This document shows positions 1 to 64,000 of a DNA stretch of 64,000 bases, piece by piece; positions within the stretch are counted from its first letter, which is position 1; the number at the start of each line of letters is the position of its first letter. A model generated the notes under the pieces. The model did not search any database, was not told the DNA's origin, and saw nothing but the letters and a program-made list of their open reading frames with translations. Source of the stretch: Hymenobacter gelipurpurascens (GTDB taxonomy: Bacteria > Bacteroidota > Bacteroidia > Cytophagales > Hymenobacteraceae); NCBI RefSeq assembly GCF_900187375.1, contig NZ_FYEW01000001.1:992001-1056000 (forward strand), written 5' to 3'. A program made the translations under genes and the position numbers.

Positions 1-2324
1 CCGTGGCCCGTAGTATTGAGGCGGCCGGTAACCTCATCGAAGAACGTTTCGCGCCCACCCAGCGTGGAGTCGCCGAGGCTTTTTTGCGTGATTTTCTTGA
101 TGGGTTGCTTGGTCACGATGTTGCCCATCGACCCCTTGCCTTTAATGGACAGCTCGGCAAAGTCGAAGTCAAACTGCTTCACCCGGGCGGCCGCCTTATC
201 GGAGAGCTGGATGTTTACAATTTCCGATTCCGAATTGGGGTTAGCCGTCAGGTAGAGCGTTTTGGTGCCTTTAGTGCCTTTGGTCAGGTCATACACCTTG
301 TCGCGGGTAATGCCCGTGACCAGGAAGCGCTTGGCAAAGCTGATACCGGAGGCGCCATCCAAGTACACCATATTGTACACCAGCCGGTCGTCGTTCTTAT
401 TATAGACGCCTACGTGTAGAATGTCCTTGCCCACGAAGGTCTTTTCCGCGATTTTAGACACTGTAAACGTACCATCCCGACGAATAGCTATGATGTCGTC
501 CAGGTCGGAGCAGCTGGTGACTTCCACGGCCTTCTCGTCTTTCTTGAGGCCATAGCCCACGAAACCATCGGCGTAGTTTACGTAGAGCTTCTGGTTAGCC
601 ACGGCCACTTTTTGGGCCGTTACCACATCAAAGGTGCGCAGTTGGGTTTTACGCTCTCTGTTCTGGCCGTACCTCTTCAGCAGACCTTCAAAGTAGTTGA
701 TGGCGTAGCGCGTGAGGTTGGCCAAATGGTCGGCTACTTCCGTCAGCTCACCTTCCAGACGCTGGATAAACTCTTCGGCCTTGAACCCATCGAACTTCGA
801 AATGCGCTTGATGCGGATTTCCGTCAGGCGCGTCAAATCGTCCTCCGTGATGGTGCGGCGCAGCACAATGCGCGTGTCGTTGGCCTTTTGCTTCTCGCCT
901 TCAATGCGCACGAACTTGCGTAGGCCACTGTCAATCGTTTCGAGAATCTCTTCCCAGGTTTCGCACTCCTCAATTTTGCGGTAGATGCGGTTCTCGATGA
1001 AAATCTTCTCCAGCGAAGCCGAAAGCCACTTCTCCTGCAGTTCCTCCTGACGAATTTCCAGCTCGCGCTCCAGCAGGCGCACAGTTTTCTGGGTGCTCAG
1101 GCGCAGCATATCCTCTACTCCCACAAAGCGCGGCTTATCCTCGATAATCACGCAGGTGTTGGGCGAAATGCTGATTTCGCAGTCGGTGAAGGCGTACAGC
1201 GCGTCCATCGTGAGGTCGGGGCTCACGCCGGTAGGCAGATGCACCTGAATCTCGACGGCCGCCGCCGTGTTATCGACCACCTTCTTGATCTTGATTTTAT
1301 TCGCCTCCGAGGCCTTCACGATGCTTTCCATCAGCGCCGTGGTGGTGGTGCCGTACGGAATGTCCCGGATGACGAGCATGGTCTTATCCGCCTTCTCGAT
1401 GGTAGCGCGCAGGCGTATTTTTGCGCCGCGTAGGCCACCGTTATAGTTCGAGACGTCGCAGAGGCCACCCGTCGGGAAGTCGGGGAACAGTTGAATGTCG
1501 CGGCCCCGCAGCACATCAATACTAGCCTTGCACAACTCGCGGAAGTTGTGGGGCATAATCTTCGTAGACAGGCCTACGGCAATGCCTTCTACGCCTTGGG
1601 CCAGCAGCAGCGGGAATTTGACGGGCAGCGTGGTGGGCTCGCGCTTGCGGCCGTCGTAGCTCATCTGCCACTCCGTGATGTCGGGGTTGAAGACCACATC
1701 CAAAGCAAACTTGCTCAGGCGGGCTTCAATATAACGCGGGGCAGCCGCGCCGTCGCCGGTCCGGATGTCACCCCAGTTGCCCTGGGTTTCGATCAGCAGA
1801 TCCTTCTGGCCCAGGTTCACCATAGCGTCGCCGATGGAGGCGTCGCCGTGGGGGTGGTACTGCATGGTCTGCCCGATGACGTTGGCTACTTTGTTGAAGC
1901 GGCCATCGTCCATTTCCTTCATAGCATGCAGAATGCGGCGCTGCACCGGCTTGAGGCCGTCCTCAATGGCGGGCACGGCACGCTCCAGAATCACGTAGCT
2001 GGCGTAATCCAGAAACCAGTTCTGGTACATGCCGTTCACGGTGGCTACGTCATGAATGGTTTCGCCGGGCGCAAATTTAGGCTCCTCTTCCGTTTCTTCG
2101 GTTACGGGCGTGGGCTCCGTTACGGCTACCACGTCGGCACCCGACTCTGACAACAGCAACTCGCCGGTTTCGCTGACCACAAATTGCGCGGGCTCCTCCG
2201 TGGGGCTGGCCGCATCCGCCGGATCCTGCGCCGGCTCCGACCCAAACTCAAAGGAATCACCGGCCCCGAATAGGTTCGGCTGCTCTTCAGGGTTGAGGTC
2301 TTGGGGGTTCGTTTCTTCTGACAT
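1..2324 (-). CDS. parC: DNA topoisomerase IV subunit A (C-terminus beyond window)
   Basis: Cleaves and religates DNA as the A subunit of a type IIA topoisomerase; with ParE it forms the decatenase. Translating the minus strand from the ATG at 2322-2324 gives 774 codons that run off the left edge. An acidic, low-complexity N-terminus of about 60 residues precedes the conserved breakage-reunion domain. The active-site tyrosine lies in AAPRYIEARLS, preceded by the YHPHGDAS and QGNWGD motifs. A GyrA-type beta-pinwheel region follows but is cut off. parE lies 166 bp upstream on the same strand, which favours ParC over GyrA. The long acidic N-terminal extension is unusual. A GyrA identity cannot be excluded without the C-terminal domain. 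Confidence 0.9.
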   Translation of the reverse strand, partial: MSEETNPQDLNPEEQPNLFGAGDSFEFGSEPAQDPADAASPTEEPAQFVVSETGELLLSESGADVVAVTEPTPVTEETEEEPKFAPGETIHDVATVNGMYQNWFLDYASYVILERAVPAIEDGLKPVQRRILHAMKEMDDGRFNKVANVIGQTMQYHPHGDASIGDAMVNLGQKDLLIETQGNWGDIRTGDGAAAPRYIEARLSKFALDVVFNPDITEWQMSYDGRKREPTTLPVKFPLLLAQGVEGIAVGLSTKIMPHNFRELCKASIDVLRGRDIQLFPDFPTGGLCDVSNYNGGLRGAKIRLRATIEKADKTMLVIRDIPYGTTTTALMESIVKASEANKIKIKKVVDNTAAAVEIQVHLPTGVSPDLTMDALYAFTDCEISISPNTCVIIEDKPRFVGVEDMLRLSTQKTVRLLERELEIRQEELQEKWLSASLEKIFIENRIYRKIEECETWEEILETIDSGLRKFVRIEGEKQKANDTRIVLRRTITEDDLTRLTEIRIKRISKFDGFKAEEFIQRLEGELTEVADHLANLTRYAINYFEGLLKRYGQNRERKTQLRTFDVVTAQKVAVANQKLYVNYADGFVGYGLKKDEKAVEVTSCSDLDDIIAIRRDGTFTVSKIAEKTFVGKDILHVGVYNKNDDRLVYNMVYLDGASGISFAKRFLVTGITRDKVYDLTKGTKGTKTLYLTANPNSESEIVNIQLSDKAAARVKQFDFDFAELSIKGKGSMGNIVTKQPIKKITQKSLGDSTLGGRETFFDEVTGRLNTTGH

Positions 2325-2490
2325 GAGGGGTGTGGCTGGCGCCACGGTTATTGTTCTTGTACCTCTCTCCTGCTTCTGTTTCGAGGAAAAGCAGAAGGTT
2401 TATTTGCGCTAGGCCAGTTGCCAGGCAATTTCACTTACTACGCTACTACATTAGCACACAACATGCTGGGTAGCTGGCAGCCAAAAAGGC

Positions 2491-4422
<1,932 letters not shown>

Positions 4423-4615
4423 CAGGAAAACCAGAAATCATATTTGAGGTAAAATAACGCAGAAAATTGACCTTTTCCGCGCTTTACTTTCGCTATCCAA
4501 GTTAGCAATTACTGGGTATTCAACCTACGAAAAGCGCTGTTCGTTCCCGTAAAATGGCTTAAAACACTTCAAAAGAATCATCTCTCCCTTCTCATCTTCC
4601 CAATTTATTTAGCAA

Positions 4616-5800
4616 ATGCTACCCCCCGCTGGTCAACATCACTTACCCCCTTCCGGGCACAAGCCCACTTCTACCGTCAAGCAAACCCCTATTGTTCAGT
4701 TTGCCTTCTTCATGCTGGGCTCTGTGCTGTTGATATATTCCCTTAAGGAATTAGACGACATCCTGCTGCCACTGCTGTTTTCGGCGCTCTTTACGCTGCT
4801 GCTGCTGCCCATTTGCCGGTGGCTGGAACTGCGCAAGGTTCCGCGCGTGCTTGCCATTATTCTGTGCCTGCTGCTGGTGCTGCTGGTGTTTGCCGGTATC
4901 ATCTTCGGGTTTGGATCCCAGCTAGCGCAGTTTCAATCGGAAATACCCAAGCTGCAGGATAAGCTGATGGAGTTTTTCAATGAGGCACAGGCCTGGGCGC
5001 ATACCAAGTTTGGGTACCAGCCCATGAGTATTGCCGACGTAAAAGACACCACGATGAAGGCCCTGAAGAAGTCGGGGGGTACCTACCTGGGTACCACGCT
5101 CAACACCACTTCGGCAGTGCTGAGCAACCTGGCGCAGGTACTGATTTACATCTTCTGCTTGTTGTTCTACCGCGACCATCTGCGGCAGTTCATGTTCCGT
5201 TTTGTGGCTCCGGATAAGCGCACGGCCGTGCTGCACACCGTCGATAATATCCAGACGGTAGTACAAGCCTACATCTCGGGGTTGTTTAAGGTTATCATCA
5301 TTGTGGCTATTCTGAACGGTATAGGCCTAGTGGCGCTGGGCGTTAAGTTTGCGGTCTTCTTTGCCATCTTCGCTTCAGTGCTGGCGGTCATTCCCTATAT
5401 CGGCATCATGATTGGGGCTACCATCCCGGCCATTATTACGCTGGTTGAAACGGGCTCCATTTTGCAGGCCTCTCTGGTAGTGGGTGTGTTTGTGGTGGTG
5501 CAGTTTCTGGAAGGCAACTTTATAACGCCCATGATTACCGGCTCACAGGTAAGCATCAATCCGCTGGCCGCCATCCTGGCCCTGATACTGGGCAACGAGC
5601 TCTGGGGCACTCCTGGCATGATTCTCAGCATTCCGCTGATTGCCGTAATTAAGGTGGTACTGGATGCCAACAAAACTACCGAGCCCTGGGGTTTCCTGCT
5701 GGGAGATACGGCCGAGGGCGAGGACTCTACCAAGCCCGAGACCAAGCAACCGGGTGGCTTGCAAAAGCTCTGGAACCGGGCTATTGGCAAGGCCGCTTAG
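4616..5800 (+). CDS. AI-2E family transporter (UPF0118 permease)
   Basis: Polytopic inner-membrane protein of 394 aa belonging to the AI-2E/TqsA/YdiK family. Some members export the autoinducer AI-2 or other small molecules and others act as Na+/H+ antiporters, so the substrate here is unknown. Hydrophobic segments lie at about 26-65, 75-105, 165-190 and several between 225 and 345. The family signature near VIPYIGIMIGATIPAI and the FLEGNFITPMITG segment are present. The C-terminal 40 residues are polar and charged. Monocistronic: a strong terminator follows within 25 bp. Confidence 0.85.
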   Translation: MLPPAGQHHLPPSGHKPTSTVKQTPIVQFAFFMLGSVLLIYSLKELDDILLPLLFSALFTLLLLPICRWLELRKVPRVLAIILCLLLVLLVFAGIIFGFGSQLAQFQSEIPKLQDKLMEFFNEAQAWAHTKFGYQPMSIADVKDTTMKALKKSGGTYLGTTLNTTSAVLSNLAQVLIYIFCLLFYRDHLRQFMFRFVAPDKRTAVLHTVDNIQTVVQAYISGLFKVIIIVAILNGIGLVALGVKFAVFFAIFASVLAVIPYIGIMIGATIPAIITLVETGSILQASLVVGVFVVVQFLEGNFITPMITGSQVSINPLAAILALILGNELWGTPGMILSIPLIAVIKVVLDANKTTEPWGFLLGDTAEGEDSTKPETKQPGGLQKLWNRAIGKAA

Positions 5801-5823
5801 ATAGGCCTACAGGCCACGTAAAG

Positions 5824-5863
5824 GAACCCTGCTCCACACGATGTGAGCAGGGTTCTCTGTTTT
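5824..5863 (+). terminator. Rho-independent terminator after the AI-2E permease
   Basis: Perfect 11-bp arms (5824-5834 and 5845-5855) flank a 10-nt loop and are followed by a T-rich tract. It closes the permease transcript. Confidence 0.8.
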
Positions 5864-6007
5864 AGAGCATCGCAAAGTCAACATATTTCTCCCAAATTTT
5901 ATACCCCTTATTCAGCAACCTCCCAGCGTTTGGGTAGGTATAATGCTCAGGTTGCTGCTTCTGGCAGCGCCCTTTTTTGAATACTCTAACCCTGAAAATT
6001 CCTTCCC

Positions 6008-6478
6008 ATGGCTATTATCACTGGCGAAACCGCTCGCGCTTACAACGACCTCGTAGAAATCAATAAAACGGCTGCTAAAGGCTATCAGGAAGCTGCCGAA
6101 GGTGTATCGAGCCCCGAGCTGAAATCTAAACTGAGCCAGCTAAGCCAGCAGCGCGCGCAGTTTGCTTCTGAGCTCACGCAGCATGCCAATCAGTATGGCA
6201 TCACCCCCCAAGATGAAACCACGGTAGAAGGCGTAGTGGCCGATGCTGCCGCCGCCGTACACCGGGGCTGGATCAACATTAAGTCGGCTATTACCGGCCA
6301 AGACGACTCAGCCATTCTGGGCGAGTGCGAAACGGGCGATGCTACGGCCTTGAGCTCCTACGAAACTGCTCTAAAATCACGGGAGCTGCCCACTGAGGCC
6401 CGCACCGTAATCGAGAAACAGCACGGCGAAATTCTGTCGGCTAAAAACTGGGTAACGCAACAGAAAGGCAGCCGCTAG
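6008..6478 (+). CDS. PA2169-family four-helix-bundle protein (DUF2383-like)
   Basis: Soluble 156-aa protein without signal peptide, largely helical. The N-terminal half (LVEINKTAAKGYQEAAEGV, then KLSQLSQQRAQFASEL) and the C-terminal EKQHGEILSAKNWV match the DUF2383/PA2169 ferritin-like four-helix pattern, a family often linked to stress responses. No metal-ligand set can be assigned with confidence. The gene stands alone between two terminators. Its TAG stop is the first part of a TAGGCC site. Confidence 0.7.
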   Translation: MAIITGETARAYNDLVEINKTAAKGYQEAAEGVSSPELKSKLSQLSQQRAQFASELTQHANQYGITPQDETTVEGVVADAAAAVHRGWINIKSAITGQDDSAILGECETGDATALSSYETALKSRELPTEARTVIEKQHGEILSAKNWVTQQKGSR

Positions 6479-6496
6479 GCCACCTTCTTTCTTCCT

Positions 6497-6531
6497 AAAA
6501 AAAGCCTGCCATGTGCAGGCTTTTTTTGTTT
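6497..6531 (+). terminator. Rho-independent terminator after the PA2169-like gene
   Basis: Arms at 6500-6509 and 6514-6523 form an A-rich/T-rich hairpin around a GC core, followed by a run of T. Confidence 0.85.
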
Positions 6532-6593
6532 TACTCAGTACCGCACAAGGTACTTTTGCAGAACTGTGGGCGCTTTGCAACCTTTGGAAAGCC

Positions 6594-6601
6594 TATCTTT
6601 G
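6594..6601 (+). promoter_or_regulatory. Candidate -7 box upstream of the exonuclease fusion gene
   Basis: TATCTTTG fits the Bacteroidetes housekeeping -7 consensus TAnnTTTG and lies 46 bp before the TTG start. A TTTG lies 16 bp upstream at 6574-6577, slightly closer than the usual 19-21. A second match, TACTTTTG, is at 6551-6558. Confidence 0.4.
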
Positions 6602-6647
6602 TTACCAATCTGCTTAGCACGTTTTATTACCTGATTTCAAGCCGCTT

Positions 6648-8132: not shown

Positions 8133-8170
8133 CGCCAGCAGTAGCTGCAGTTGTACAAATGCCCTCAGGA

Positions 8171-21334: not shown

Positions 21335-21913
21335 ATGAAAACTCCCGTTTTCCCTCGGATGCACGTTTCACTGTACGTGTCCGACCTGACCGCAACGGTT
21401 AATTTCTACACGGCTTTCTTTGGACAGCCGGCCACTAAAATCCGTCGGGGCTACGCGAAGTATGTACTCGCCCAGCCTGCTCTGATTATATCCTTCGTGG
21501 AGAATCTCGAGCGCGTCGCCAGCAACTTCGGGCACCTGGGTTTTCAGGTGGAAACGGTGGAGGAAATGGAGCAGCGAATGACCAAAGCCCGGACGCAGGG
21601 CCTGGTGGCCCGCGAGGAAATGGGCACCAGCTGCTGCTACGCCAAGCAGGACAAGTTCTGGGTGAATGACCCCGACGGCGTGGAATGGGAGGTTTACTAC
21701 TTTCATGAGGATGCCGAGTTCAATGACCCACGCTACCAGCAGGAATACGACCAGGCCAATGGCAGCAGCCAGTGCTGCATTGCGCCTGCTACGTCTGCCG
21801 CCGCCGTGCCGGAAGAAGTATTGACCACCGCACCCATGGCTTTCACGCTGGTAGATGCCACCCCAGCTAACTCACCCGCTGCCGCCTGCACACCCGGCGG
21901 CGGATGCTGCTAG
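21335..21913 (+). CDS. arsI: ArsI/CadI-family dioxygenase (C-As lyase)
   Basis: 192-aa vicinal-oxygen-chelate protein. ArsI uses Fe(II) and O2 to split the C-As bond of methyl- or aryl-arsenite. The N-terminal fold begins RMHVSLYVSDL. Candidate metal ligands are His10, His67 (FGHLGF) and Glu119 (GVEWEVYYF). The substrate-binding Cys pair of ArsI is Cys100-Cys101 (GTSCCYA). A 50-residue tail beyond the domain ends CTPGGGCC, with another pair SSQCC, paralleling the ArsR tail. The name CadI is the alternative, but the CC pair and operon favour ArsI. The gene ends in a TAGGCC site. Confidence 0.88.
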   Translation: MKTPVFPRMHVSLYVSDLTATVNFYTAFFGQPATKIRRGYAKYVLAQPALIISFVENLERVASNFGHLGFQVETVEEMEQRMTKARTQGLVAREEMGTSCCYAKQDKFWVNDPDGVEWEVYYFHEDAEFNDPRYQQEYDQANGSSQCCIAPATSAAAVPEEVLTTAPMAFTLVDATPANSPAAACTPGGGCC

Positions 21914-22088
21914 GCCACTCTCAGCCAATTGTGCCGGCTCAATATACATCCGCCCTGGTGGCCTAGGCCACTCCGAGCACTTGGCCTAGGCCCGACGTGG
22001 GCTAGCAGGAAAAGCAGGGCAAAGACTTTAGTGCCCTACCCTCTTTACTGGCGTTGTTGGCACACTATATTTTATTTACCCCATATTC

Positions 22089-22604
22089 ATGGCTATGCTA
22101 ATCAAACCACTGCTTGAAACGCACTGGCCAGCGGTACGAGCTATTTACGAGGCTGGCATAGCGACCGGAAATGCTACCTTCGAAACCCAGGCCCCTACCT
22201 GGGAAGCCTGGGACCGTGGCCACTTGGCCTACAGCCGCCTGGTAGCCACCTCCGATGACGGCACGGTGCTGGGCTGGGCGGCCCTGAGCCCAGTTTCGGG
22301 GCGCTGCGTATATGGCGGCGTGGCCGAAATCAGCATTTATATTGCGCCGGAAGCTCGGGGGCAAGGCGTAGGCCGGCAATTGCTGCAGGCGCTTATTGCC
22401 GACTCCGAGGCCAATGGCATCTGGACGCTGCAGGCCGGTACGTTCGAGGAAAACAAAGCCAGCATCGGGCTGCATACGCAGGCTGGCTTTCGGGTGATAG
22501 GCTACCGCGAACGAATCGGGCAGCACCATGGTGTGTGGCGCAACACTGTGCAGATGGAGCGGCGCAGCCCGGTAGTGGGTGTGCCCGCTCCAGAAGCCCA
22601 TTAG
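22089..22604 (+). CDS. arsN1: ArsN1-like N-acetyltransferase (PAT family)
   Basis: 171-aa GNAT of the phosphinothricin-acetyltransferase group. Residues 14-40 (WPAVRAIYEAGIATGNATFETQAPTW, here shown as extent) are the PAT substrate region. The acetyl-CoA loop is APEARGQGVGRQLLQAL. PAT-type enzymes in ars operons are called ArsN1 and acetylate arsinothricin, an organoarsenical antibiotic. The operon position supports this; without it, phosphinothricin resistance would be equally plausible. A 175-bp gap with two GGCCTAGGCC sites separates it from arsI. Confidence 0.75.
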   Translation: MAMLIKPLLETHWPAVRAIYEAGIATGNATFETQAPTWEAWDRGHLAYSRLVATSDDGTVLGWAALSPVSGRCVYGGVAEISIYIAPEARGQGVGRQLLQALIADSEANGIWTLQAGTFEENKASIGLHTQAGFRVIGYRERIGQHHGVWRNTVQMERRSPVVGVPAPEAH

Positions 22605-22661
22605 CCGCCTCAGTCGGTTCTCATAAGCCAGTCGATTGTCGTAGTTCCCGTGGTTCACTGT

Positions 22662-31568: not shown

Positions 31569-31590
31569 AGCAGTGGCCTAGGCCACTGCT
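31569..31590. repeat. Perfect 22-bp palindrome centred on CCTAGG
   Basis: Both halves read AGCAGTGGCCT outward from the centre (31579/31580). It lies between the -7 box and the ABC-F start, so it would be in the 5' leader. It is the longest intergenic member of the TAGGCC family found here. Confidence 0.85.
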
Positions 31591-31625: not shown

Positions 31626-33248
31626 ATGATCAGCACCTCCAACGTAAGCCTGCGCTACGGCAAGCGCGTATTGTTCGAAGACGTTACCATCAAGTTCATG
31701 CCCGGCAACGTGTATGGCCTGATTGGGGCCAACGGCGCCGGCAAGTCTACTTTTCTTAAAATCCTTTCGGGCGAGATTGAGCCGAATACGGGCTCGGTTG
31801 ATATGCCCAAGGGGGCCCGCCTTTCGGTACTAAAGCAGGACCAGTTTGCGGCCGATGCTTTCCCAGTGCTCCAAACCGTAATCATGGGCCACACGCGCCT
31901 ATGGAAAGTAATGGAGGAAAAGGATGCTCTATATGCCAAGCCCGATTTTTCGGATGCTGACGGAGAGCGCGCCGCCGAGCTGGAAGGCGAATTTGCTGAC
32001 CTGGAAGGCTGGAACGCCGAGTACGAAGCCGCCGAGTTGCTCTCGGGCCTGGGCATTGGCGAAGACAAGCACCAAACCATCATGGGCGACTTGGGCTCGT
32101 CCGATAAAGTTCGGGTCTTGCTAGCCCAGGCTCTCTTCGGTAACCCCGATGTCCTGCTTCTCGACGAACCAACCAACGGCCTCGATGCGGAAACTGTATT
32201 GTGGCTGGAGAATTTCCTTGATTCTTTCCAGAACACGGTAATTGTAGTAAGCCACGACCGTCACTTCCTAGATGCCGTGTGTAACTACATGGCCGATCTG
32301 GACTTCTCGAAAATCACGATGTATCCCGGTAATTACTCGTTCTGGTACGAGTCGTCGCAGTTGGCCTTGCGTCAGCGCCAGGATATCAACAAAAAGACCG
32401 AGGACAAGCGTAAGGAACTGGAAGAGTTTGTACGCCGGTTCTCGGCCAACGCCTCGAAATCCAAGCAGGCCACCTCGCGCCAGAAGCTACTCCAGAAGCT
32501 CACGCTGGAAGAAATCAAGCCTAGCTCTCGTAAGTACCCCTACATCGCCTTTAAGCCCGAGCGCGAGGCCGGCAATCAGCTCCTGACAGTGGAGAACCTG
32601 AGCAAGTCGGTTGATGGACAGGTGGTATTCCGCAACGTATCGTTTGCGCTGGATAAGAAGGATAAAGTAGCCATCATTGGCCGCGACGACCGGGCCGCCT
32701 CCCTCCTATTCGATATTCTCTTCAATGAAGCGAAGCCCGATACCGGCGACTTCAAGTGGGGTACGACTATCACACCCAGCTACTTCCCGAAGGAAAACAC
32801 CGAGTTTTTCAATACTGATCTGAACCTGGTGGACTGGCTCCGGCAGTACAGCACTGAGAAGGACGAGTCGTTTATCCGGGGCTTCCTGGGCCGCATGTTA
32901 TTCTCGGGCGAAGAGTCACAGAAGAAATCCAACGTCCTCAGCGGAGGCGAGAAAGTGCGCTGCATGCTGTCCAAGATGATGATGGAAAGCGGCAACGTAC
33001 TCGTGCTCGACGACCCGACGAACCACCTGGACCTGGAGAGCATCACGGCGCTGGACAACTCTCTACGGGAATTCAACGGCACCCTGCTGTTTGCTTCTCA
33101 TGACCTGCAAGTAATTCAGAGCGTAGCGAACCGTATTATTGAGCTGACGCCAGATGGTATCATCGACCGTCGTATGTCGTACGAAGAGTACTTGGCTGAT
33201 GACGTAATCAAAGCCCAGCGTCAGCGGATGTATCAACTTGTGTCGTAG
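31626..33248 (+). CDS. YbiT-like ABC-F ATPase with one decayed ATP site
   Basis: 540-aa tandem ABC ATPase without membrane domains; ABC-F proteins act on the ribosome. NBD1 has an intact Walker A (GANGAGKST), Walker B (LLLDEPTNGLD) and a variant signature (LGSSDK). The linker includes FSANASKSKQATSRQK, a YbiT hallmark. NBD2 has a degenerate Walker A (GRDDRAASL, no GKS/T) but an intact signature (LSGGEK) and Walker B (LVLDDPTNHLD). So the site formed by NBD1 Walker A with NBD2 signature is intact while the opposite one has lost both key parts. Followed 17 bp later by a beta-barrel gene. Confidence 0.88.
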   Translation: MISTSNVSLRYGKRVLFEDVTIKFMPGNVYGLIGANGAGKSTFLKILSGEIEPNTGSVDMPKGARLSVLKQDQFAADAFPVLQTVIMGHTRLWKVMEEKDALYAKPDFSDADGERAAELEGEFADLEGWNAEYEAAELLSGLGIGEDKHQTIMGDLGSSDKVRVLLAQALFGNPDVLLLDEPTNGLDAETVLWLENFLDSFQNTVIVVSHDRHFLDAVCNYMADLDFSKITMYPGNYSFWYESSQLALRQRQDINKKTEDKRKELEEFVRRFSANASKSKQATSRQKLLQKLTLEEIKPSSRKYPYIAFKPEREAGNQLLTVENLSKSVDGQVVFRNVSFALDKKDKVAIIGRDDRAASLLFDILFNEAKPDTGDFKWGTTITPSYFPKENTEFFNTDLNLVDWLRQYSTEKDESFIRGFLGRMLFSGEESQKKSNVLSGGEKVRCMLSKMMMESGNVLVLDDPTNHLDLESITALDNSLREFNGTLLFASHDLQVIQSVANRIIELTPDGIIDRRMSYEEYLADDVIKAQRQRMYQLVS

Positions 33249-47659: not shown

Positions 47660-48334
47660 CTACGGGATATCGAGGAATTTGTGTGTCTGTAACGACACCT
47701 GCCACTTGGGGTTCTCCTTCACGTAGTCAACAATGAGCGGCATCATTTGCGAAACTTTGCTCCACTCGGGCTGCAGATATAGCCGGCAGCTGGGGCTCAC
47801 TAAAGCGGCATGCTGCTCTGCCCAGGCAAAATCAGACTTATTAAACACGATTATTTTCAGCTCATGAGCTGCAGCCAGCACTTCTGGCAATGGTGCCTTG
47901 AATTTTTTGGGCGAGACGCAAATCCAGTCCCATTCGCCGCTTAGCGGGTAAGCGCCGCTGGTTTCAATCCAGTTCTGGCACCCGGCCGCGTGCAAAGCTG
48001 CCGTGAGGTGGCCTAGGTTATGCATGAGGGGCTCGCCCCCCGTAATAACCACGTTGCGCCCGGCGTGGGCAGTAGTAGTGGCGACAATATCTGGAATAGA
48101 TACCCGCGGATGCGCGTCAGCATCCCAGGATTCTTTCACATCACACCATACGCAGCCTACGTCGCAACCACCCAGGCGGACGAAGTAGGCAGCGCGGCCG
48201 GTGTTGTAGCCTTCGCCCTGAATGGTGTAAAACTGCTCCATCACGGGCAGTGCAGGTGCCGGAGCCCCACCTGTCGGGGCCACCGACGCAATAGGAAGTT
48301 CGTGCAGCAAAATAGGGTATTCTAAAAACGACAA
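47660..48334 (-). CDS. queE: 7-carboxy-7-deazaguanine synthase
   Basis: 224-aa radical SAM enzyme of queuosine synthesis. The iron-sulfur motif is CDVGCVWC in FVRLGGCDVGCVWCDVKESW. EQFYTIQGEGYNTGRAAYF precedes it and VITGGEPLMHNL follows. The start is TTG; an internal ATG at 48241 also exists but would remove residues common in the family. It precedes the OmpA-family gene on the same strand. Confidence 0.9.
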   Translation of the reverse strand: MSFLEYPILLHELPIASVAPTGGAPAPALPVMEQFYTIQGEGYNTGRAAYFVRLGGCDVGCVWCDVKESWDADAHPRVSIPDIVATTTAHAGRNVVITGGEPLMHNLGHLTAALHAAGCQNWIETSGAYPLSGEWDWICVSPKKFKAPLPEVLAAAHELKIIVFNKSDFAWAEQHAALVSPSCRLYLQPEWSKVSQMMPLIVDYVKENPKWQVSLQTHKFLDIP

Positions 48335-48487: not shown

Positions 48488-48519
48488 CAGGCCTAGGCCA
48501 GCGTACTGGCCTAGGCCTG
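48488..48519. repeat. Perfect 14-bp inverted repeat at the folD stop, TAGGCC type
   Basis: Arms at 48488-48501 and 48506-48519 with a 4-nt loop (CGTA). Each arm is centred on a CCTAGG palindrome. The right arm contains the last codons and TAG stop of folD. It could act as a terminator stem, but no T-run follows. Confidence 0.75.
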
Positions 48520-49428
48520 TTTCGGATACACTTCCCCTTTAGCAGCCCGCAGGGTATTGAGCAAGAGCATGGCAATGGTCATGGGACCCACGCCACCCGG
48601 AACCGGAGTAATGTAGGAGGTAAGCGGCGCAACTTCAGCAAAGTTAACGTCGCCTTTCAGGGCCCAGCCCGACTTCTTGGTGGCATCCTCTACCCGGGTG
48701 GTGCCCACATCAATAACCACCGCACCCGGCTTCACCATATCGGCCGTTACGAACTCCGGTCGGCCTAGGGCAGCCACCAGAATGTCAGCGGTACGGGTGA
48801 TTTCGGCCAGGTTCTGTGTGCGCGAATGACATAAAGTAACCGTGCAGTTTCCAGGCTCTAAGTTCTTAGCCAACAGTATGCTAACCGGTGTTCCAACAAT
48901 ATTCGAACGACCAATAACCACGCAGTGCTTGCCATCCGTCACAAGTTCGTAGCGGCGCAACAGCTCCACAATACCCGAAGGCGTGGCAGGCAGCAAGGCC
49001 GGTAGGCCTGCCACCATCCGCCCAATATTCATTGGGTGAAAGCCATCCACATCCTTTTCGGGCATTACCGCTTCAATCACCTTGTTGGTATCGATATGGC
49101 GCGGTAAGGGCAACTGCACAATGAAGCCATCAATCTCAGGGTCGTGGTTGAGCTCCTCTACTTTGGCCAATAGCTCAGCCTCCGTAATGGTGTCCTCGTA
49201 GCGGAGCAGCGTGCTCTCGAACCCTACCCGTTCGCAGGCAAGTACTTTGTTGCGGACGTAGGTTTCGGAACCGCCATCGTGGCCTACCAGAATGGCGGCC
49301 AAGTGTGGCACCTTATGGCCAGCTGCTTTCAGCTGGGTTACCTCCGCAGCAATTTCTTCTTTGATAGCCTCTGCGGTTTGCTTTCCGTCGATGAGGCGGT
49401 AGGTGGTAGCTTCGGGCGCTGTGGTCAT
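48511..49428 (-). CDS. folD: Methylenetetrahydrofolate dehydrogenase/cyclohydrolase
   Basis: 305 aa; interconverts methylene-, methenyl- and formyl-tetrahydrofolate. [14 protein letters not shown] (catalytic Lys), QLPLPRHID, and the NADP loop [17 protein letters not shown] are present, as is [10 protein letters not shown]. The ATG at 49428 is preferred over the upstream frame start. A small gene lies 16 bp upstream in the same transcript. Confidence 0.93.
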
Positions 49429-49444
49429 GCGAACGTGTATGTGG

Positions 49445-49624
49445 TTAGTCCTGAGTTGGTGCTTTCTTTTCCTTATGCGCTGCAATAGCGGCATGGCCAG
49501 CGGCCATTAGGGCTTTCTCCATCGTAGGCCAGTCATCCCTCCACCGGAATTTGTGCTCTTGCCCTTTGCGGATCTTTTCTAGCTGCTCCTCGGAGGTACA
49601 GTTCTTGGTGAGTTTGTCTGGCAT
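49445..49624 (-). CDS. Small soluble protein of unknown function
   Basis: 59-aa charged protein ([19 protein letters not shown]..., ending KEKKAPTQD). Likely helical; contains one Cys and [12 protein letters not shown]. No family recognised with certainty. Co-oriented with folD and only 16 bp ahead of it, so cotranscription is likely. The ATG at 49624 is chosen over the longer frame. Confidence 0.55.
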
Positions 49625-51548: not shown

Positions 51549-51849
51549 CGCAAAATGGCCGCAAAAAGCTAATGGAGGCCCTTGGCACTTCCGCGCATGC
51601 CGCTAGGCCACTTGCGGTATCGGGCATATTTCGTTGCCTTACAGAAGCCATATTTTCCGACAAAAGACTGTGTGGGGAGTGGCCTAGCGCTTGGTCCCGA
51701 CTAACGCTACTGGCAAATACGGGCGCTCAACTGTGCTATAGTCGCAAAGAGGCGCTGTATCGTCTCAACTGTGCCCGGCGCAATAGCCGAAGCCCCAGGA
51801 AACCCGTTGTTTGGTGGAAATCCTTCCTAACCAAACTACCAAAATCATT
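51549..51849. other. Intergenic region between lepA and the GlcG/HbpS-like gene
   Basis: Divergent region of about 300 bp. It contains TAGGCC sites near 51604 and 51682, but no gene or further promoter was recognised. Confidence 0.4.
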
Positions 51850-52257
51850 ATGGGAATTACCCTCGAACAAGCACAGGCCGCCCTTCATGCAGCCCATCAA
51901 AAGTCTATGGACATGGGCCTCAAGATGAATATTGCAGTGGTGGACGCCGGCGCTAACCTCACCGCCTTTATCCGGATGGACGACGCCTGGCTGGGCTCAC
52001 TCGACATTTCCATTAAGAAAGCTAAAACCGCCCGTTTCTTTGATATGCCAACCGGCGCTATTGGAGGACTCTCCCAGCCCGGCGGCTCACTCTACAATAT
52101 TGAGCACTCCAACGGCGGCCTCATCACCTTCCCCGGCGGAATTCCCATTAAGGACGCCAGCGGCCGCGTTATTGGGGCCATCGGCGTATCCGGCGACTCC
52201 GTGGAAAACGACCACACCGTAGCCGAAGCCGGTATGCAGGCCGTGGCAAACCGCTAG
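51850..52257 (+). CDS. GlcG/HbpS-family protein (DUF336)
   Basis: 135-aa soluble protein. The family pattern is intact: [42 protein letters not shown] at the N-terminus and [24 protein letters not shown] toward the end. Streptomyces HbpS binds heme and iron; other members bind small ligands, so the ligand here is unknown. The ATG at 51850 is preferred over the GTG at 51811. Together with fdhA downstream it probably forms an operon. Confidence 0.75.
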
Positions 52258-52273
52258 AGTGGCCTAGGCCACT
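52258..52273. repeat. 16-bp perfect palindrome AGTGGCCTAGGCCACT
   Basis: Directly after the stop of the GlcG/HbpS-like gene and 29 bp before fdhA. It is a typical TAGGCC-family site. Confidence 0.9.
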
Positions 52274-55630: not shown

Positions 55631-55632
55631 CG

Positions 55633-55640: not shown

Positions 55641-55672
55641 CTACCCCAAAATCCACCCTAATCCCCCGCGCT

Positions 55673-58600: not shown

Positions 58601-59152
58601 ACCGAAGAATCGGTGCGTCGGGCCATGGCCATTCAGCTCATCATCAACCGCGAGCTAGGCCTAGCGAAGAACGAAAACCCACTGCAAGGGTCATTCATCA
58701 TCGAGGAGCTCACGGACCTCGTTGAAGAAGCCGTCCTGACGGAGTTTGACCGCATCAACGAGCGCGGAGGCGTGCTCGGGGCCATGGAAACCATGTACCA
58801 GCGTGGCAAGATTCAGGAGGAAAGCATGCACTACGAGATGCTCAAGCACACGGGCGAGTATCCCATCATTGGTGTGAATACCTTTCTCTCCTCGAAAGGC
58901 TCGCCCACGGTGGTACCCGCCGAGGTTATCCGCGCAACGGAGGAGGAAAAGCAGTTCCAAATTACGATGCTGCAGAACCTGCACGCCCGCAACGCTAGCA
59001 CCACCGAGCAGCGCCTGAAGCAGCTACAACAGGTAGCTGTAGCCAACGGCAACCTCTTCGAGGAACTGATGGAAACCGTGAAGTTTTGCTCCCTAGGCCA
59101 GGTCACCAATGCCTTGTTTGAGGTAGGCGGACAGTACCGCCGGAATATGTAA
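55673..59152 (+). CDS. icmF: Fused isobutyryl-CoA mutase
   Basis: 1159-aa adenosylcobalamin enzyme that interconverts isobutyryl-CoA and n-butyryl-CoA. Three parts: an N-terminal B12-binding domain ([46 protein letters not shown]), a MeaB-like chaperone GTPase ([18 protein letters not shown], about 215-500), and the C-terminal mutase barrel ([24 protein letters not shown] region; [31 protein letters not shown]). The three-part fusion defines IcmF and excludes ordinary methylmalonyl-CoA mutase. The ATG at 55673 opens directly on the B12 domain. Likely serves valine and branched-chain fatty acid metabolism. Confidence 0.93.
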
Positions 59153-59172
59153 ATCGATTTTCGGACTAAGTT

Positions 59173-59207
59173 AAAAGGGCGCTACTTCAACGAAGTAGCG
59201 CCCTTTT
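59173..59207 (+). terminator. Terminator after icmF
   Basis: Perfect 16-bp arms (59173-59188 and 59192-59207), 3-nt loop, T4 at the end. Confidence 0.9.
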
Positions 59208-59228
59208 CATTGTCATACAATCTACTAT

Positions 59229-59687
59229 ATGAAACATACCGAGAAACTAAATGCTATCCTTCGTGAACTTTATGCCCGAGGTTCTGATAAAATGGATCAG
59301 ATGTTAAAGACCAAACATGCCCATCTTATTATCTGCAGCGAAAAGGATAACCTATCCGCCATCCTGCGCGACCTGAAGCGGCACATGTCCAAAACCATTC
59401 TGAAAGCCATTGAGGAGAATGGGCAGTAAAGCCGCCATGAGTAGCTGCTTTGGATGTTTGGACGGGCCGGGCAGCGCAACAGTCACAACGAGAAATATCA
59501 GTTCTGGCAGCAGTATAGCCATCCTATTGAACTGCACTCCCACGAGATGCACCGGCAGCGACTGGAGTATCTTCATGGCAACCCTGTCGTGGCGGGCTTT
59601 GTAGACACGCCCGAGGAACTTCAATATAGCAGCGCCCGTAACTACACCGGACGACCGGGGTTGCTGGAGGTACTGTTCATGGGCTAA
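59229..59687 (+). pseudogene. Decayed REP-associated tyrosine transposase (Y1/IS200-like)
   Basis: One frame with two stops. Part 1 (59229-59429) contains HAHLIICSEKDNLSAILRDLKRHMSKTILKAIEEN, the HxH helix and following region of Y1 transposases. TAA (59427-59429) and TAG (59442-59444) interrupt, and the same frame continues as LLWMFGRAG, YQFWQQYSHPIEL, LEYLHGNPVVAGFVDTPEELQYSSARNY. Intact relatives read ESRREWLLWMF at the gap, so GAA to TAA and TGG to TAG explain the stops. The N-terminus before HAH is not recognisable. The catalytic Tyr region is degraded. Confidence 0.8.
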
Positions 59688-59744
59688 ACTGTCCCCGCTA
59701 CAGGAGCGCCGTGCCTACTTCCGGCAATTGCCTAGCTTTACCCC

Positions 59745-61574
59745 ATGCGCACTGCTTTCATTAGGTGGAAAAGTACCATATTACTATTACTGATAGGCCT
59801 AGCCGCCTGCTCTTCCCCTGATCAACAGACCAGCGCCCCTGTTCAGGACCCAAAGACAGGCGAAGTGTACGCCCAGCGGCGCGTAGTGGTGTCCGATACG
59901 CTTATCCGGGGCCGCATCCTCGACCGCAACGACTCCGTGCTAGTAGATACGCGCATGCAATACCTGCTGAAGCTGCCGCGCCGCCCCCCTCTCGACACGC
60001 TGGCGCTAGGCCTGTTGCTGGGTTGGGACTCCACAACCGTTCGGCGGCGTATTGCCAATGCCCTGCCCTACGAAGAAGCCCCGGCCGGCTACCCGGTTCA
60101 GCTTCGGCTAACTGCCACCGAAGCCAAACGCGTCCGTCGCGACAGCGCCGAGTGGCCTAGCCTGGTTCTGACTGAGCGCCGACAACGCACCTATACTACC
60201 AACGCGGGTGCTCCGGTGCTGGGCTATAAAGGCTCCGAGGCTCAGGCGTTTTTTGGCCAAGCCAAACGCTACCGGCGAGGCCGTTTTTATCGGCTGCGGA
60301 GTGGTGGCGTTGAGACCTACTATAATGGGTTGCTCAACGGACGCCACGGCTACCTTCACCCCCTTGTAGATGCCAAGGGCAAGGAGCACGGCACCTGGGC
60401 GAAGGACACCACCTTTCAGCAAGGCCAAGACCTGCACCTGACCATTGATGTGAAGCTGCAGGCCTACGCTGAGAAGCTGCTCGGTGGCCGCAAGGGCTAC
60501 CTAGTGGCTATCGATCCGCGCACGGGCGAAATACTGGCCTACGTGTCGGCGCCCGTTTATGAGGCCGCTACTCTTACCGCCCCCGACCGAGCCGGGGTGC
60601 GCGCCAAGCTGTTGCAAAGCGAGAATATGCCGCTGCTGAATCGGCCTGCCATGGTGGCCAACCCGCCGGGCTCGGTGTTCAAGCTGGTGAATGCGGCCGT
60701 GGCCCTGCAACTGGGTGCCATCAGCCCCACCACGGGGTTTCGCTGCGACCAGTCGCTGATCAGCTGCGTGCACGACCACCGTCCGGCTAAAACCCTTACG
60801 GCGGGCCTGAAGTACAGCTGCAACCCCTACTTCTACCAAGTGATGCGCAACCTCATTGACCGCATGCCGGATAGTCTGGCCGCGGTGGATACGGTGGCAG
60901 CCCGCCACGCTAACCTGGCCCTTTGGCGCCGTTACGTCCGGTCGTTTGGGCTGGACTCGGTGCTGGGTGTGGATGTACCGCGCGAAGTACCGGGCTTTCT
61001 GCCTACCCCAGCGTATTACGACAAAGCTCGCCGCACCACTCGCTGGACGTACCGTTCTATCTATTCACTCAGCATCGGGCAGGGTGAAATCAACCTCACG
61101 GGCCTCCAGATGGCCAATATGGCGGCCATCATTGCCAACCGCGGCTGGTACTACCCGCCTCATCTGGTGCGCAAAGTTGGGGAAGGCGGGCCGCTGCCAC
61201 GCTTCCTTGAAAAGCACCGCACCCTCATCGACAGCGTGCACTTTGCCGAACTCATTCCGGGCATGGTAGCCGTGATGCAGCGCGGCGGCACCGCCGATGC
61301 CTCCAGCCTCGCCGATGTGGGCATCACGGTGGCAGGCAAAACCGGCACCGTAGAAAACGACGAGGGCGACGACCACGCCGCCTTCGTAGGTTTCGCGCCG
61401 GCCAGCAACCCCAAAATAGCCGTGGCGGTGTACCTCGAAAACGGCGGCTTTGGAGCCAAGGCCGCCGCGCCCTGCGCCGTGATGGTAATGGAGAAGTACT
61501 TGCGCGGCAGCATCGCGGCCAAGCGTAAGCGCTGGGAAAAGCGCATTCAGAACCGGGCTCGGCAAGATGAGTGA
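59745..61574 (+). CDS. Penicillin-binding protein 2-like transpeptidase with lipobox
   Basis: 609-aa class B PBP, cross-linking peptidoglycan. The transpeptidase motifs are all present: PPGSVFKL (SxxK), YSCNPY (SxN), and AGKTGTV (KTG). The dimerisation region has RGRILDRNDSVLVDTR. Instead of a plain membrane anchor the N-terminus reads LLLLIGLAACSS, a lipobox with Cys near residue 22, so it may be lipid-anchored. PBP2-type members work in elongation. The short length and lipobox set it apart from the usual PbpA, so a second, specialised PBP2 is plausible. Confidence 0.8.
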   Translation: MRTAFIRWKSTILLLLIGLAACSSPDQQTSAPVQDPKTGEVYAQRRVVVSDTLIRGRILDRNDSVLVDTRMQYLLKLPRRPPLDTLALGLLLGWDSTTVRRRIANALPYEEAPAGYPVQLRLTATEAKRVRRDSAEWPSLVLTERRQRTYTTNAGAPVLGYKGSEAQAFFGQAKRYRRGRFYRLRSGGVETYYNGLLNGRHGYLHPLVDAKGKEHGTWAKDTTFQQGQDLHLTIDVKLQAYAEKLLGGRKGYLVAIDPRTGEILAYVSAPVYEAATLTAPDRAGVRAKLLQSENMPLLNRPAMVANPPGSVFKLVNAAVALQLGAISPTTGFRCDQSLISCVHDHRPAKTLTAGLKYSCNPYFYQVMRNLIDRMPDSLAAVDTVAARHANLALWRRYVRSFGLDSVLGVDVPREVPGFLPTPAYYDKARRTTRWTYRSIYSLSIGQGEINLTGLQMANMAAIIANRGWYYPPHLVRKVGEGGPLPRFLEKHRTLIDSVHFAELIPGMVAVMQRGGTADASSLADVGITVAGKTGTVENDEGDDHAAFVGFAPASNPKIAVAVYLENGGFGAKAAAPCAVMVMEKYLRGSIAAKRKRWEKRIQNRARQDE

Positions 61575-61859
61575 ATATAATTGGACTTCACATATAACCC
61601 AGCAAATCAAGCGTTGACATACTGCTTCTCACTTGGGTGACTATCACCTTGTCCCATAAGGAGGGGCAAGAAAATGAGTATGTCATTAATAGAAGGTGGT
61701 GGTCTAAGTGGGTGTGAAAGGCGTATAGCTGTTTATGATAACAACGAGCCAACGTTGCGGGCGCTGTCACAGCCTACACGTGCGCAGAAATGGCAGTAGT
61801 CATGGCCGCCCTAAGTAACAGTGTACTAGCTGCACCTATCAAGGGTACTCTCAAACTGC
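61575..61859. other. Noncoding stretch before the IS1 remnant
   Basis: No gene recognised. It may hold decayed parts of the following insertion sequence; no clear terminal inverted repeat was found. Confidence 0.4.
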
Positions 61860-62435
61860 TGCCCCAGCGCGCGCTACCCTGTACGCCCATGTAGAGAAGT
61901 TGCTGGTCAAGCACGTATCCCAGCGCGCCATTGCACGCCTGATGGGTGTCGCTCGATCACAGCAGCCAAGCTGGCAAAAAAATGCGCAGGCACCGCTCCT
62001 AATCAGTCGCCTCCCCGTTCGGACGCAGGTACTGGGGATGGATGAAATGTGGCCCTTTGTGGGCCGTAGGCGCTGAAAAGTCTGAATAGAGTTAGCTGTC
62101 GCGCGGCACAGCCGGCGGATCGTGGCCTGGGTGCTCGGTACGCGCGGGACAGCCACGGCACAGCGGCTCTAGCTAGCCGTGCCGTGGCTGTGTTACACCG
62201 GCACCTAGTACTTTACGATGTGTGAGAGCCGTATCGAGGGTCGCTACCGCTCGCCGCCCATCGCCCTAGTCCCAAAGGTAGTGGTCATAATAGCATCATC
62301 GAAGCAGTGAAGTGTTCCCTGCGCCAGCGTTGTGCCGTACTGGCGGGTAAGTCATGCTCCTTTAGTCGCTCTATAGGCATGAATCGAATCTGGCTGCAAC
62401 TCTGCATTGATGACCAAGATCAACGATTCACACCA
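61860..62435 (+). pseudogene. Decayed IS1-family transposase
   Basis: Recognisable pieces: EKLLVKHVSQRAIARLMGVAR (helix-turn-helix, frame from 61894), MDEMWPFVGRRR (62038; the catalytic DE-containing segment of IS1), SRRIVAWVLGTRGTAT (62107-62154), and, shifted one frame, SIIEAVKCSLRQRCAVLAGKSCSFSR (62292 on), which is the conserved RxNxxLRQR end. Stops interrupt (TGA, TGA in RRR*KV*). At least one frameshift and several stops make it non-functional. Flanks the AT-rich methyltransferase gene. Confidence 0.7.
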
Positions 62436-62571
62436 AATTAGGCCACCTCCTAATAGAAATAGTTGATATTTACTGGCATTATCATGAATTTATTCATACA
62501 TTAACACAGTTTATAACCGTCAATAAACATTGATCAACAGCCAAATTTTTGCTTTTTTAATTTTTTAATAT

Positions 62572-63384
62572 ATGAACATCCTAAAATTAATAAAAAATAA
62601 ATATTTGCTTTTTTTAATTTGCAAAATAGGATATATGAGAAAAAATTTAAATTTAAGAAGCCTAAGAATGTATCACAAAGGCAGGTTTTTTATTTATGAT
62701 GTAAATGGCTTTAATATGGCATCAGAATCATTTAGCTGGTATTTACATAAGTACTTATTGGAACAGGACGTAACCAATATTAGCGGTAAATTCTATCGTC
62801 CTTGCGCGGGTGACGTAGTCCTAGATATCGGAGCTGGACTAGGGGAAGAGACGTGTATTTATGCCGATCTTGTCTCCCCAAAGGGAGCAGTATATGCGGT
62901 GGAGGCTAACCCGATGGTATATGAAGTACTCCAGGAAGTTATTAAGCTGAATAATTTTACTAACGTGCACCTTTTTAATATTGCAATCAGTGAGCAGCAG
63001 GAGTTAGTTCGTATTGACGATGCACCCGACACCTATTTAGCTTCCTCACTGAACAATGTAAAAAAAGGCACAATATACGAAGTGCAAGGTCTACCACTGC
63101 ATGAATTTTGTTCTTTCTACAATATTCACCAAATAGATTTGCTGAAAGTAAATATTGAGGGAGCCGAACGTTATCTAGCAACTGCTTTCGAACGGCCTGA
63201 ACTTGATATTAGACACGTTGCTATTTCATGTCATAATTTTCGCTTTACCAAAGAAGGAAACGAATTTTTCCGTACGAAAGCATTGGTGAGCGACTACTTA
63301 AAGCGTAATGGGTATGCTATAATTAGCCAATGTACTGGCACGGATTACATTGATGATTGGGTTTATGGCACCAAAATGCGATAA
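62572..63384 (+). CDS. FkbM-family methyltransferase, likely transferred
   Basis: 270-aa SAM-dependent methyltransferase. Motif I is VVLDIGAGLGEETCIYA, then GAVYAVEANPMVYEVL (motif II, acidic), and IDLLKVNIEGAERYL and HVAISCHNFR typical of FkbM. FkbM-type enzymes methylate sugars or polyketides. The gene is much AT-richer than everything around it, with many AAA/TTT codons, and is bracketed by IS1 and IS630 remnants, which suggests recent acquisition. The upstream 110 bp are also AT-rich. Confidence 0.82.
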   Translation: MNILKLIKNKYLLFLICKIGYMRKNLNLRSLRMYHKGRFFIYDVNGFNMASESFSWYLHKYLLEQDVTNISGKFYRPCAGDVVLDIGAGLGEETCIYADLVSPKGAVYAVEANPMVYEVLQEVIKLNNFTNVHLFNIAISEQQELVRIDDAPDTYLASSLNNVKKGTIYEVQGLPLHEFCSFYNIHQIDLLKVNIEGAERYLATAFERPELDIRHVAISCHNFRFTKEGNEFFRTKALVSDYLKRNGYAIISQCTGTDYIDDWVYGTKMR

Positions 63385-63482
63385 CATATTTGCTGCTTTC
63401 ATCAACGTAAAATCTAATAAGGATTTATACAGCGGATTCACAAACGATGTAGCTGTTATTATGTGGCCTACGTAGATGGGGT

Positions 63483-64000
63483 ATGCAAGCGTATTCCTTG
63501 GATTTGCGCCAGCGCGTGGCTCAGGCGCTGGCCTAGCCGGATGCTCGGCAGGCGCAGGTAGCGGCCCGCTTTTGTGTGAGCTTGGCCTTCGTGGGCAAGT
63601 TGCAGCGTAGGCAGCGGCAAACTGGCTCGATGGCGGGGCGGGCCGCCGGGGTGGTGGCGCAGGTCGGGCACCAGTCGGACGCGACTCTGGCCGAGTTGCG
63701 CGACGCGCTGGCGGCCGACACGGGCAGCGGGTGAGCATGGGCGCCGTCTGGCGCGTGCTAGACGAGCACAGGCTGCGGCGCAAAAAAAGTCTGCACGCGG
63801 CCGAGCGTGACATGCCCCGTGTGCACGAGCTACGGCGCCAGCACGTAGAAGCGGTGAGCGAGCGCGGCGATGTGCACCGGTTTTACTTCTTGGATGAGAC
63901 CGGTCTGCACTTGGATTACGCGCGGCGCAACGGCACGGCCCCGCCCGCGCGCCGGCGCGCGGGCGGGGCCGTGCCGTTGCGCCTGGGAAAGAGTCTGACG
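63483..64000 (+). pseudogene. IS630-family transposase, interrupted and running off the window
   Basis: Starts MQAYSLDLRQRVAQALA at 63483, a typical IS630 N-terminus, with a helix-turn-helix (QVAARFCVSLAFVGKLQRRQRQTGS). A TAG at 63534-63536 interrupts. The frame ends in TGA at 63732-63734, where the reading shifts to the frame of ATG 63737 (VSMGAVWRVLDEHRLRRKKSLHAAERD), continuing to the DDE Asp segment FYFLDETGLHLDYARR. The rest lies past the window. At least two lesions; programmed shifting is known in some IS630/ISL-like elements, so the frameshift alone is not proof of decay. Confidence 0.75.
63924..63983. repeat. Perfect 60-bp palindrome without spacer
   Basis: Left half 63924-63953 is the exact reverse complement of 63954-63983, very GC-rich. 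It falls inside the IS630 transposase frame and keeps that frame open. Such spacerless palindromes are usually unstable in bacteria. Confidence 0.95.

Follow-up and report, generated by a model that had tools for sequence, protein, structure and literature searches.

An asymmetric motif built on GGCCTA, hyper-abundant in Hymenobacter gelipurpurascens and three relatives, as a possible self-recognition mark

The stretch analysed here (the window) comprises 64,000 nucleotides of Hymenobacter gelipurpurascens, positions 992001-1056000 of contig C1 in a genome of 5.06 Mb and 9 contigs (G000), and it encodes Bacteroidota-like proteins, such as a PorE-like OmpA protein and LepA, the latter 97% and 94% identical to two Hymenobacter records. 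Throughout the window lie the hexamer TAGGCC and its complement GGCCTA (Table 1). By maximal-order Markov z score TAGGCC is the top hexamer of the window (166 copies on both strands against 117 expected, z 7.3), and it stands at 4.4 times the base-composition expectation (AAAAAA at 4.9 times). Genome-wide, the longer word TGGCCTA amounts to 3871 + 3767 = 7,638 copies, and the word with its letters reversed to 261 + 299. A preliminary description of the window, made from its letters, had claimed that the hexamer is over-used in both coding and noncoding DNA and had proposed a count against a Markov model; the over-use is real and larger than first stated, it holds under that model, and TGGCCTA is indeed found in both compartments, at 1.22 per kb in genes and 3.31 per kb between them, a ratio of 2.7.

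The hexamer TAGGCC/GGCCTA forms the core of a longer, asymmetric motif, approximately R-S-W-GGCC-TA-S, and the top over-represented words in samples of 435 kb and 424 kb of G000 are pieces of it. In the 435 kb, which include the window, the 10-mer AGTGGCCTAG reaches 118 times its base-composition expectation; ASTGGCCTAS, with 332 copies in 424 kb, is about 23-fold denser in G000 than in four relatives without the motif (non-carriers), which have 7 copies in 220 kb. Within GGCCTA the motif is strict: when all other positions of ASTGGCCTAS are kept, each alternative base accounts for 0-16 sites against 332 of the consensus, some of these off-consensus counts being a few-fold above even smaller ones in non-carriers (G at position 9, for example, has 16 against 1). 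Words that depart from TGGCCTA (630 sites) by one change at positions 2-7 occur at 0.55-1.29 times their rate in non-carriers. Immediately 5′ of GGCC stands T (630) or, less often, A (299); the flanking positions are G or C, at the outermost position A is preferred and then G, and in the sequence logo conservation stops a few bases beyond the core. The density ranges from about 1.5 per kb (TGGCCTA) to about 2.5 per kb (GGCCTA). The tetranucleotide CTAG, to which the preliminary description had drawn attention as part of an over-used word, is itself not over-used (observed/expected 0.81 in G000).

The motif had also been likened to a highly iterated palindrome (HIP) such as the cyanobacterial HIP1. 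What stands of this comparison is a dispersed mark across the whole genome at a density comparable to that of HIP1; the palindromic unit falls, because the consensus has W before GGCC and TA-S after it. The four palindromes quoted at the time are all present at their coordinates (Table 1), and they arise because two units overlap or lie inverted. Overlap of two units yields GGCCTAGGCC or TAGGCCTA; of 1019 copies of GGCCTA, 114 are followed by GGCC, against 27 by the next most frequent tetranucleotide, and inverted pairs are present between genes.

Codon or dipeptide use, which could have explained the excess, is excluded as its cause. In 310 called genes with 109,196 codons (longest open reading frames (ORFs), no trained gene finder; loci L117, L128, L129 and L130 left out), SWGGCCTAS was observed 454 times, while 200 within-gene shuffles of synonymous codons, the proteins being unchanged, gave a mean of 60.0 (standard deviation 6.4, maximum 79). 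Between genes it was observed 189 times against 8.2 expected from a second-order Markov model. As to position, 400 of 585 placed TGGCCTA sites are intragenic, in several frames and both orientations, and apart from stop codons they are even along genes, with no bias towards gene ends. Beside stop codons the motif is found in 76 of 498 genes of the four genomes that carry it, against 9 of 498 at mid-gene, and of 163 intergenic sites that adjoin the 3′ end of a gene, 66 are at most 25 bp away from it. A creation of TAG stops by the motif was ruled out, since TAG is a frequent stop in Hymenobacter regardless (a share of 0.34 in 19 genomes taken as motif-free). Separately, TAG was seen as the stop of 34-51% of called genes in each of eight sampled Hymenobacter groups, with a motif or with none.

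The two strands are used evenly, both in 17 segments (SWGGCCTAS 348 against 339) and genome-wide (TGGCCTA), and no consistent tilt was seen by segment, the origin not being mapped. The strand-bias check suggested earlier thus revealed no bias, and since the strands are even, the polar form of a segregation motif, one of the roles first proposed, is not supported. Spacing is near-exponential (781 gaps, mean 464, coefficient of variation 0.97, overlapping pairs merged), so nothing indicates that one site is required in every kb. Two 20-kb stretches are poor in the motif, with GGCCTA at 0.85 per kb in each against 2.3-3.15 per kb in the other 16. The first (L117, C1:1400001-1420000, on the main contig) encodes a Rep3 plasmid-type initiator and is probably an integrated plasmid or island; the second (L128, C4:1-20000), on a 285-kb contig and of 51.5% GC, is possibly part of a separate replicon. 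Of two contigs of about 5 kb, L130 has GGCCTA at 2.14 per kb and L129 has none; the latter (C5, 5440 bases), at 31.5% GC, is unlike the remaining sample. As a side observation, GATC is strongly avoided in G000 (1312 against a Markov expectation of 2634, both strands, window and L111-L130), and about half of the other sampled Hymenobacter genomes have GATC below 0.3 per kb. One scan for phages bearing the motif gave two contigs, whose 7-kb loci were at background density.

The restriction of the motif to a clade and the other motifs of the genus could not be seen in the preliminary description and were shown by comparison with sister genomes. Among 120 Hymenobacter genomes TGGCCTA is high in four, namely G000, G024 (3539/3673), G119 (3668/3564) and G111 (2454/2417), and is found 204-681 times per strand in the other 116. 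The longer word TGGCCTAG was high only in G000 (2169/2137) among 150 genomes of the family, 84 of them outside Hymenobacter, the other 149 having 5-272 copies; this count omitted the three other carriers, and TGGCCTAG was the only word counted outside the genus. The four carriers are the closest by MnmE identity, but only just, at 90% where the next two have 89%. Two trees join them: one without a root, built on 32 window genes of eight genomes, in which the split has support 1.00, and one of MnmE, rooted at the midpoint, with support 0.91. Identity among the carriers in the window genes is no more than 78-85%, so the motif must have been retained for long, and the carriers adjoin non-carriers at 75-77% nucleotide identity.

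The origin of the sites was followed in eight genomes aligned by codon, with 22 sites displayed. Most of these took the place of other sequence through ordinary substitutions and a few lie beside alignment gaps, by which an inserted repeat as their source was ruled out. With the majority base of four non-carriers as the reference, each of the seven positions of WGGCCTA has differences, transitions as well as transversions, so many types of substitution that a repair bias of one type was ruled out as well. Moreover, among residues conserved in at least three non-carriers, the amino acid is changed at 24 of 109 site codons and at 1198 of 8899 elsewhere (Fisher p 0.016). Gains at every position together with amino-acid changes fit a molecular drive; a repair bias acting on one base would not give them. 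Between one third and four fifths of sites are shared between carriers (10 of 30 of G000 in G111; 8 of 10 of G111 in G119), and for seven control words of G000 the share of copies kept in G111 was 10-53%, an eighth word never occurring. Site conservation is only moderately above that of control words, the counts being small.

Other Hymenobacter genomes have hyper-abundant words of their own (Table 1). In whole-genome counts CCTACCCC reaches 672-2737 per strand in 12 of 120 genomes and 41-324 in 105; three are intermediate, G029 and G109 at 474-545 and G043 at 249-272, and the level in G029 and G109, as expected for a motif under loss or gain, may mark relics. For GGGGCCCC, six genomes have counts of 1301-4775, with 407-792 of its backward word, and the remaining 114 have 8-139. 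The sets of genomes high in TGGCCTA, CCTACCCC and GGGGCCCC do not overlap. Samples of 14 to 424 kb were taken from 62 genomes, partly picked by earlier counts, so that motif frequencies in them are not genus frequencies. With a cut-off of 8 counts and 2.5 times the second-order Markov expectation, 27 of the 62 were flagged, with one motif each except G013 and G105, whose WSCTAGSW contains CCTAGG; among the 35 unflagged are G011 and G088, both carriers by whole-genome counts, and samples of 20 kb therefore miss some carriers.

In hold-out loci of 12 genomes, which were not fully blind as they had been included when the motif patterns were fixed, four motifs stood at 3.4 to 9.3 times the second-order Markov expectation (p 4e-5 to 3e-27), and motifs other than a genome's own were mostly near or below expectation. 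The exceptions are CCTAGG in G013 (46 against 15 expected, as part of its own WSCTAGSW), SWGGCCTAS and GGCTAGCC in G057 (9 against 4.2 and 5 against 1.8), CCTACCC in G054 (14 against 8.4) and CCCCCCA in G080 (5 against 2.4). In a ranking of 175 loci of at least 14 kb by the strongest octamer of each, the first 25 places all went to these motifs (10^-15.6 to 10^-28.8), a few other Hymenobacter octamers following at 10^-14 to 10^-15 (GTCGAGCA in G054, CAACAACG in G010); the maximum in 58 loci of named records, nearly all from other bacteria, was 10^-10.6 (AAAATATT). In all six other motif groups the intergenic density exceeds the genic one. Intragenic CCTAGG is strongly frame-bound (164 of 182 in a single frame), and since the synonymous shuffle covers SWGGCCTAS only, it is the intergenic excess alone that speaks against codon use for the other motifs.

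In the MnmE tree (61 genomes, 51 of them with sampled DNA; G017 left out, its MnmE not being recovered) the carriers of SWGGCCTAS, WSCTAGSW, GGGGCCCC and CCCCCCA are each grouped. The MnmE match itself was found split into two or three pieces in G057 (C1:1942322-1943767), G078 (C3:271380-272843), G061 (C2:2562122-2563502) and G079 (C31:17777-19161), which suggests frameshifts, insertions or sequence errors.

Table 1. Occurrences of the motif in the window (numbered from its first base) and hyper-abundant words of other Hymenobacter genomes
Feature	Position or genomes	Strand	Basis or count
Whole-window motif array, genic and intergenic	1..64000	both	83 TAGGCC and 83 GGCCTA; SWGGCCTAS 48 forward, 53 reverse
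GTGGCCTAGGCCAC, two units overlapping on CTAG, between genes called convergent	21958..21971		sequence
Inverted pair GGCCTAGGCC ... GGCCTAGGCC between ORFs 21335-21913(+) and 22098-22658(-); potential hairpin	21960..21992		longest-ORF calls
AGCAGTGGCCTAGGCCACTGCT, extended palindrome upstream of ABC-F ORF 31626-33248	31569..31590		sequence, ORF calls
CAGGCCTAGGCCAGCGTACTGGCCTAGGCCTG, inverted pair of overlapping units between ORFs 47660-48334(-) and 48511-49494(-), its end overlapping the 3′ end of the latter	48488..48519		sequence, ORF calls
AGTGGCCTAGGCCACT, overlapping pair immediately 3′ of the stop of ORF 51811-52257(+)	52258..52273		sequence, ORF calls
CCTAGG	G054, G070, G086		word counts, samples
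GGCTAGCC	G083, G104, G027		word counts, samples
WSCTAGSW	G013, G105		word counts, samples
CCTACCC	G026, G057, G078, G080, G002 and others		word counts, samples
GGGGCCCC	G047, G048, G018, G077		word counts, samples
CCCCCCA	G063, G085		word counts, 36 kb in two genomes, without hold-out

The presence of essentially one strict, hyper-abundant word per genome, which varies between lineages and is gained by many types of substitution, points to a recogniser with a preference for DNA that bears it. The motif may accordingly be the site of a self-recognising DNA-processing system, for which sequence-biased natural transformation is the likeliest form, at a probability of roughly 40%. In such a system a trans-acting, sequence-specific apparatus would favour motif-bearing DNA: a receptor at the surface or in the periplasm would prefer such DNA, the imported fragments would recombine, motif-bearing alleles would spread, and the sites would multiply by molecular drive; in other Hymenobacter the receptor would differ in specificity, giving dialects that mostly share a CTA core, as CTA is contained in five of the seven motifs, two of those five overlapping in sequence. 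We infer all three elements, that is, a single recogniser, a role in DNA uptake, and drive rather than a function at each site. In form the motif fits uptake sequences best, and this reading draws further support from the intergenic excess, the inverted pairs, the enrichment beside stop codons, the near-exponential spacing and the failure of three families to yield a methyltransferase shared by the carriers. A repair or recognition motif is possible. It has been reported that the Neisseriaceae have eight dialects of the DNA uptake sequence (DUS) with a conserved CTG core and 943 to 5918 copies, some genomes being without any (PMC3630211), and that in Haemophilus influenzae 65% of uptake signal sequences (USS) lie within the coding DNA, which makes up about 86% (PMC2346458). 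In the Bacteroidota, Riemerella anatipestifer is naturally transformable, and none of the eight essential genes described in PMC8459023 is a type IV pilus gene; R. columbina prefers its own DNA, the words described as found there being AT-rich only (PMC7965970). A wider proposal is more tentative and stands below this one in likelihood: a genus-wide, switching recognition of self DNA with about seven specificities, acting in a natural transformation that does not rely on type IV pili. Each specificity would have rewritten thousands of sites, and the uptake dialects would be far more divergent than those of Neisseriaceae.

Several observations weigh against uptake. No uptake machinery or receptor was identified by way of PF00437, ComEC or DUF5689. 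The type IV pilus ATPase PF00437 had no match in any of the four, being matched in 12 of 120 genomes, 3 of them above the cut-off, and was thereby ruled out as a marker of uptake. ComEC is present in 119 of 120 genomes, motif-less ones included, and is therefore not discriminating. DUF5689, a domain of the candidate receptor of Riemerella, is found in one carrier only (G024), in proteins resembling something else, and was rejected as a receptor marker, since the six loci inspected encode, as judged by eye from sequence, SusD-neighbour lipoproteins or longer phospholipase-D-like proteins. The open-licence literature of PubMed Central, as far as searched, yielded nothing on competence in Hymenobacter. 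The even spread of sites inside genes is unlike Pasteurellaceae USS, and, unlike known DUS, several of the motifs are palindromic and two have no CTA core. Finally, CCTACCC lies on at least three separate branches of the MnmE tree, and the CTAG-type motifs are patchy, G104 being apart from G083 and G027, and G054 apart from G070 and G086, in a weakly supported part of the tree with non-carriers between; transfer, loss or convergence is therefore needed.

The main rival, unlikely in our judgement, is that the word is a HIP-like motif kept by a cognate DNA methyltransferase through a methylation-linked repair bias, different lineages having acquired different methyltransferases. Elhai proposed such a bias for HIP1 and alternate HIPs of cyanobacteria, where the density is similar, alternate motifs replace each other and the distribution is sporadic (PMC4390886). 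Horizontal spread of methyltransferases would account for CCTACCC in several branches, and G111 has the lowest count of the four carriers, as if decaying after loss, with no match to PF00145, PF01555 or PF02384. Opposed to this, these three families provided no enzyme common to the four carriers in a search of ten genomes, PF02086, PF07669 and others not being searched: PF00145 has no match in G000 or G111, PF01555 is matched among the carriers in G000 only, and PF02384 is matched in G000, G024 and G119, where blastp (1e-8, longest three ORFs per locus) shows no similarity of the G000 protein to those of G024 and G119, and the latter two enzymes are only 26-41% alike over parts. The methylation target suggested in the preliminary description is so far not borne out within the same limits. 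The asymmetric 9-10-mer unit with its S and W positions, and the gain of sites by many substitution types, also speak against this explanation.

Two further explanations are both improbable, and about equally so. In one, the motif is a Chi-like self mark that attenuates a nuclease of the RecBCD/AddAB type, or another degradation system, with a specificity depending on the lineage. Chi sequences vary by lineage, and such a mark would likewise make self DNA rich in the motif and foreign DNA poor in it; against it stand the lack of strand polarity, the palindromic form of several motifs and an excess far above that of Chi. In the other, the motif is the site of an abundant chromosomal protein, with a part in nucleoid structure, termination or mRNA 3′ ends, and is selected at each site. 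The enrichment beside stop codons and within 25 bp of gene 3′ ends, as well as the partial conservation of sites among carriers, is what this would give, but more than two thirds of TGGCCTA sites are intragenic, in several frames and both orientations, the spacing is near-exponential, and in some relatives the word is wholly different. A bias of mutation or short-patch repair, or of codon or dipeptide use, explains abundance alone and is very improbable, given the shuffling result, the still greater excess between genes, the gains at seven positions by transitions and transversions, and the words one base off at positions 2-7 of TGGCCTA (from its first G to its A), which stay near the non-carrier level.

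Sequence-biased uptake or not, about seven motifs in one genus, with carriers beside non-carriers and possible relics in G029 and G109, constitute a natural experiment, in which contrasts of gene content over several gains and losses could reveal the recogniser, be it of uptake, methylation or nucleases. It is also conceivable that the motif limits gene flow, as a barrier readable directly from the sequence.

Highly iterated motifs are best known from two proteobacterial families, as uptake sequences, and from cyanobacteria, as the unexplained HIP1; for Hymenobacter no report of such motifs was found in the open-licence PubMed Central literature. Dispersed self-recognition words are thus already known, and what is new, as far as searched, is the phylum, the number of words per genus and the missing known machinery. 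Compared with the repetitive extragenic palindromic (REP) and miniature inverted-repeat transposable element (MITE) repeats, the Hymenobacter motif has no extended homology and has most of its sites in genes. With Chi it has in common a short over-used word dependent on the lineage, but unlike Chi and the FtsK-orienting polar sequences (KOPS) it has no polarity, and its excess is much stronger than that of Chi. HIP1 and alternate HIPs are similarly short and highly iterated, genic and intergenic, replaced by alternates in relatives and of the order of one per kb; the differences lie in the asymmetric unit, the failure of three families to yield a matching methyltransferase and the unrelated phylum. 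DUS and USS differ in phylum and in the type IV pilus ATPase, which was not found in the carriers, and the Hymenobacter motifs differ from each other far more than the uptake dialects do. The likeness to DUS and USS consists in thousands of copies of one asymmetric word of about ten bases on both strands, an intergenic excess and inverted pairs, and that to DUS also in lineage-specific words, patchy on the tree for CCTACCC and the CTAG type, with a mostly shared three-base core (CTG in Neisseriaceae, CTA in Hymenobacter) and in some genomes without any. Taken together, the Hymenobacter motifs look like a changing self-recognition mark of a type so far unreported for these bacteria.

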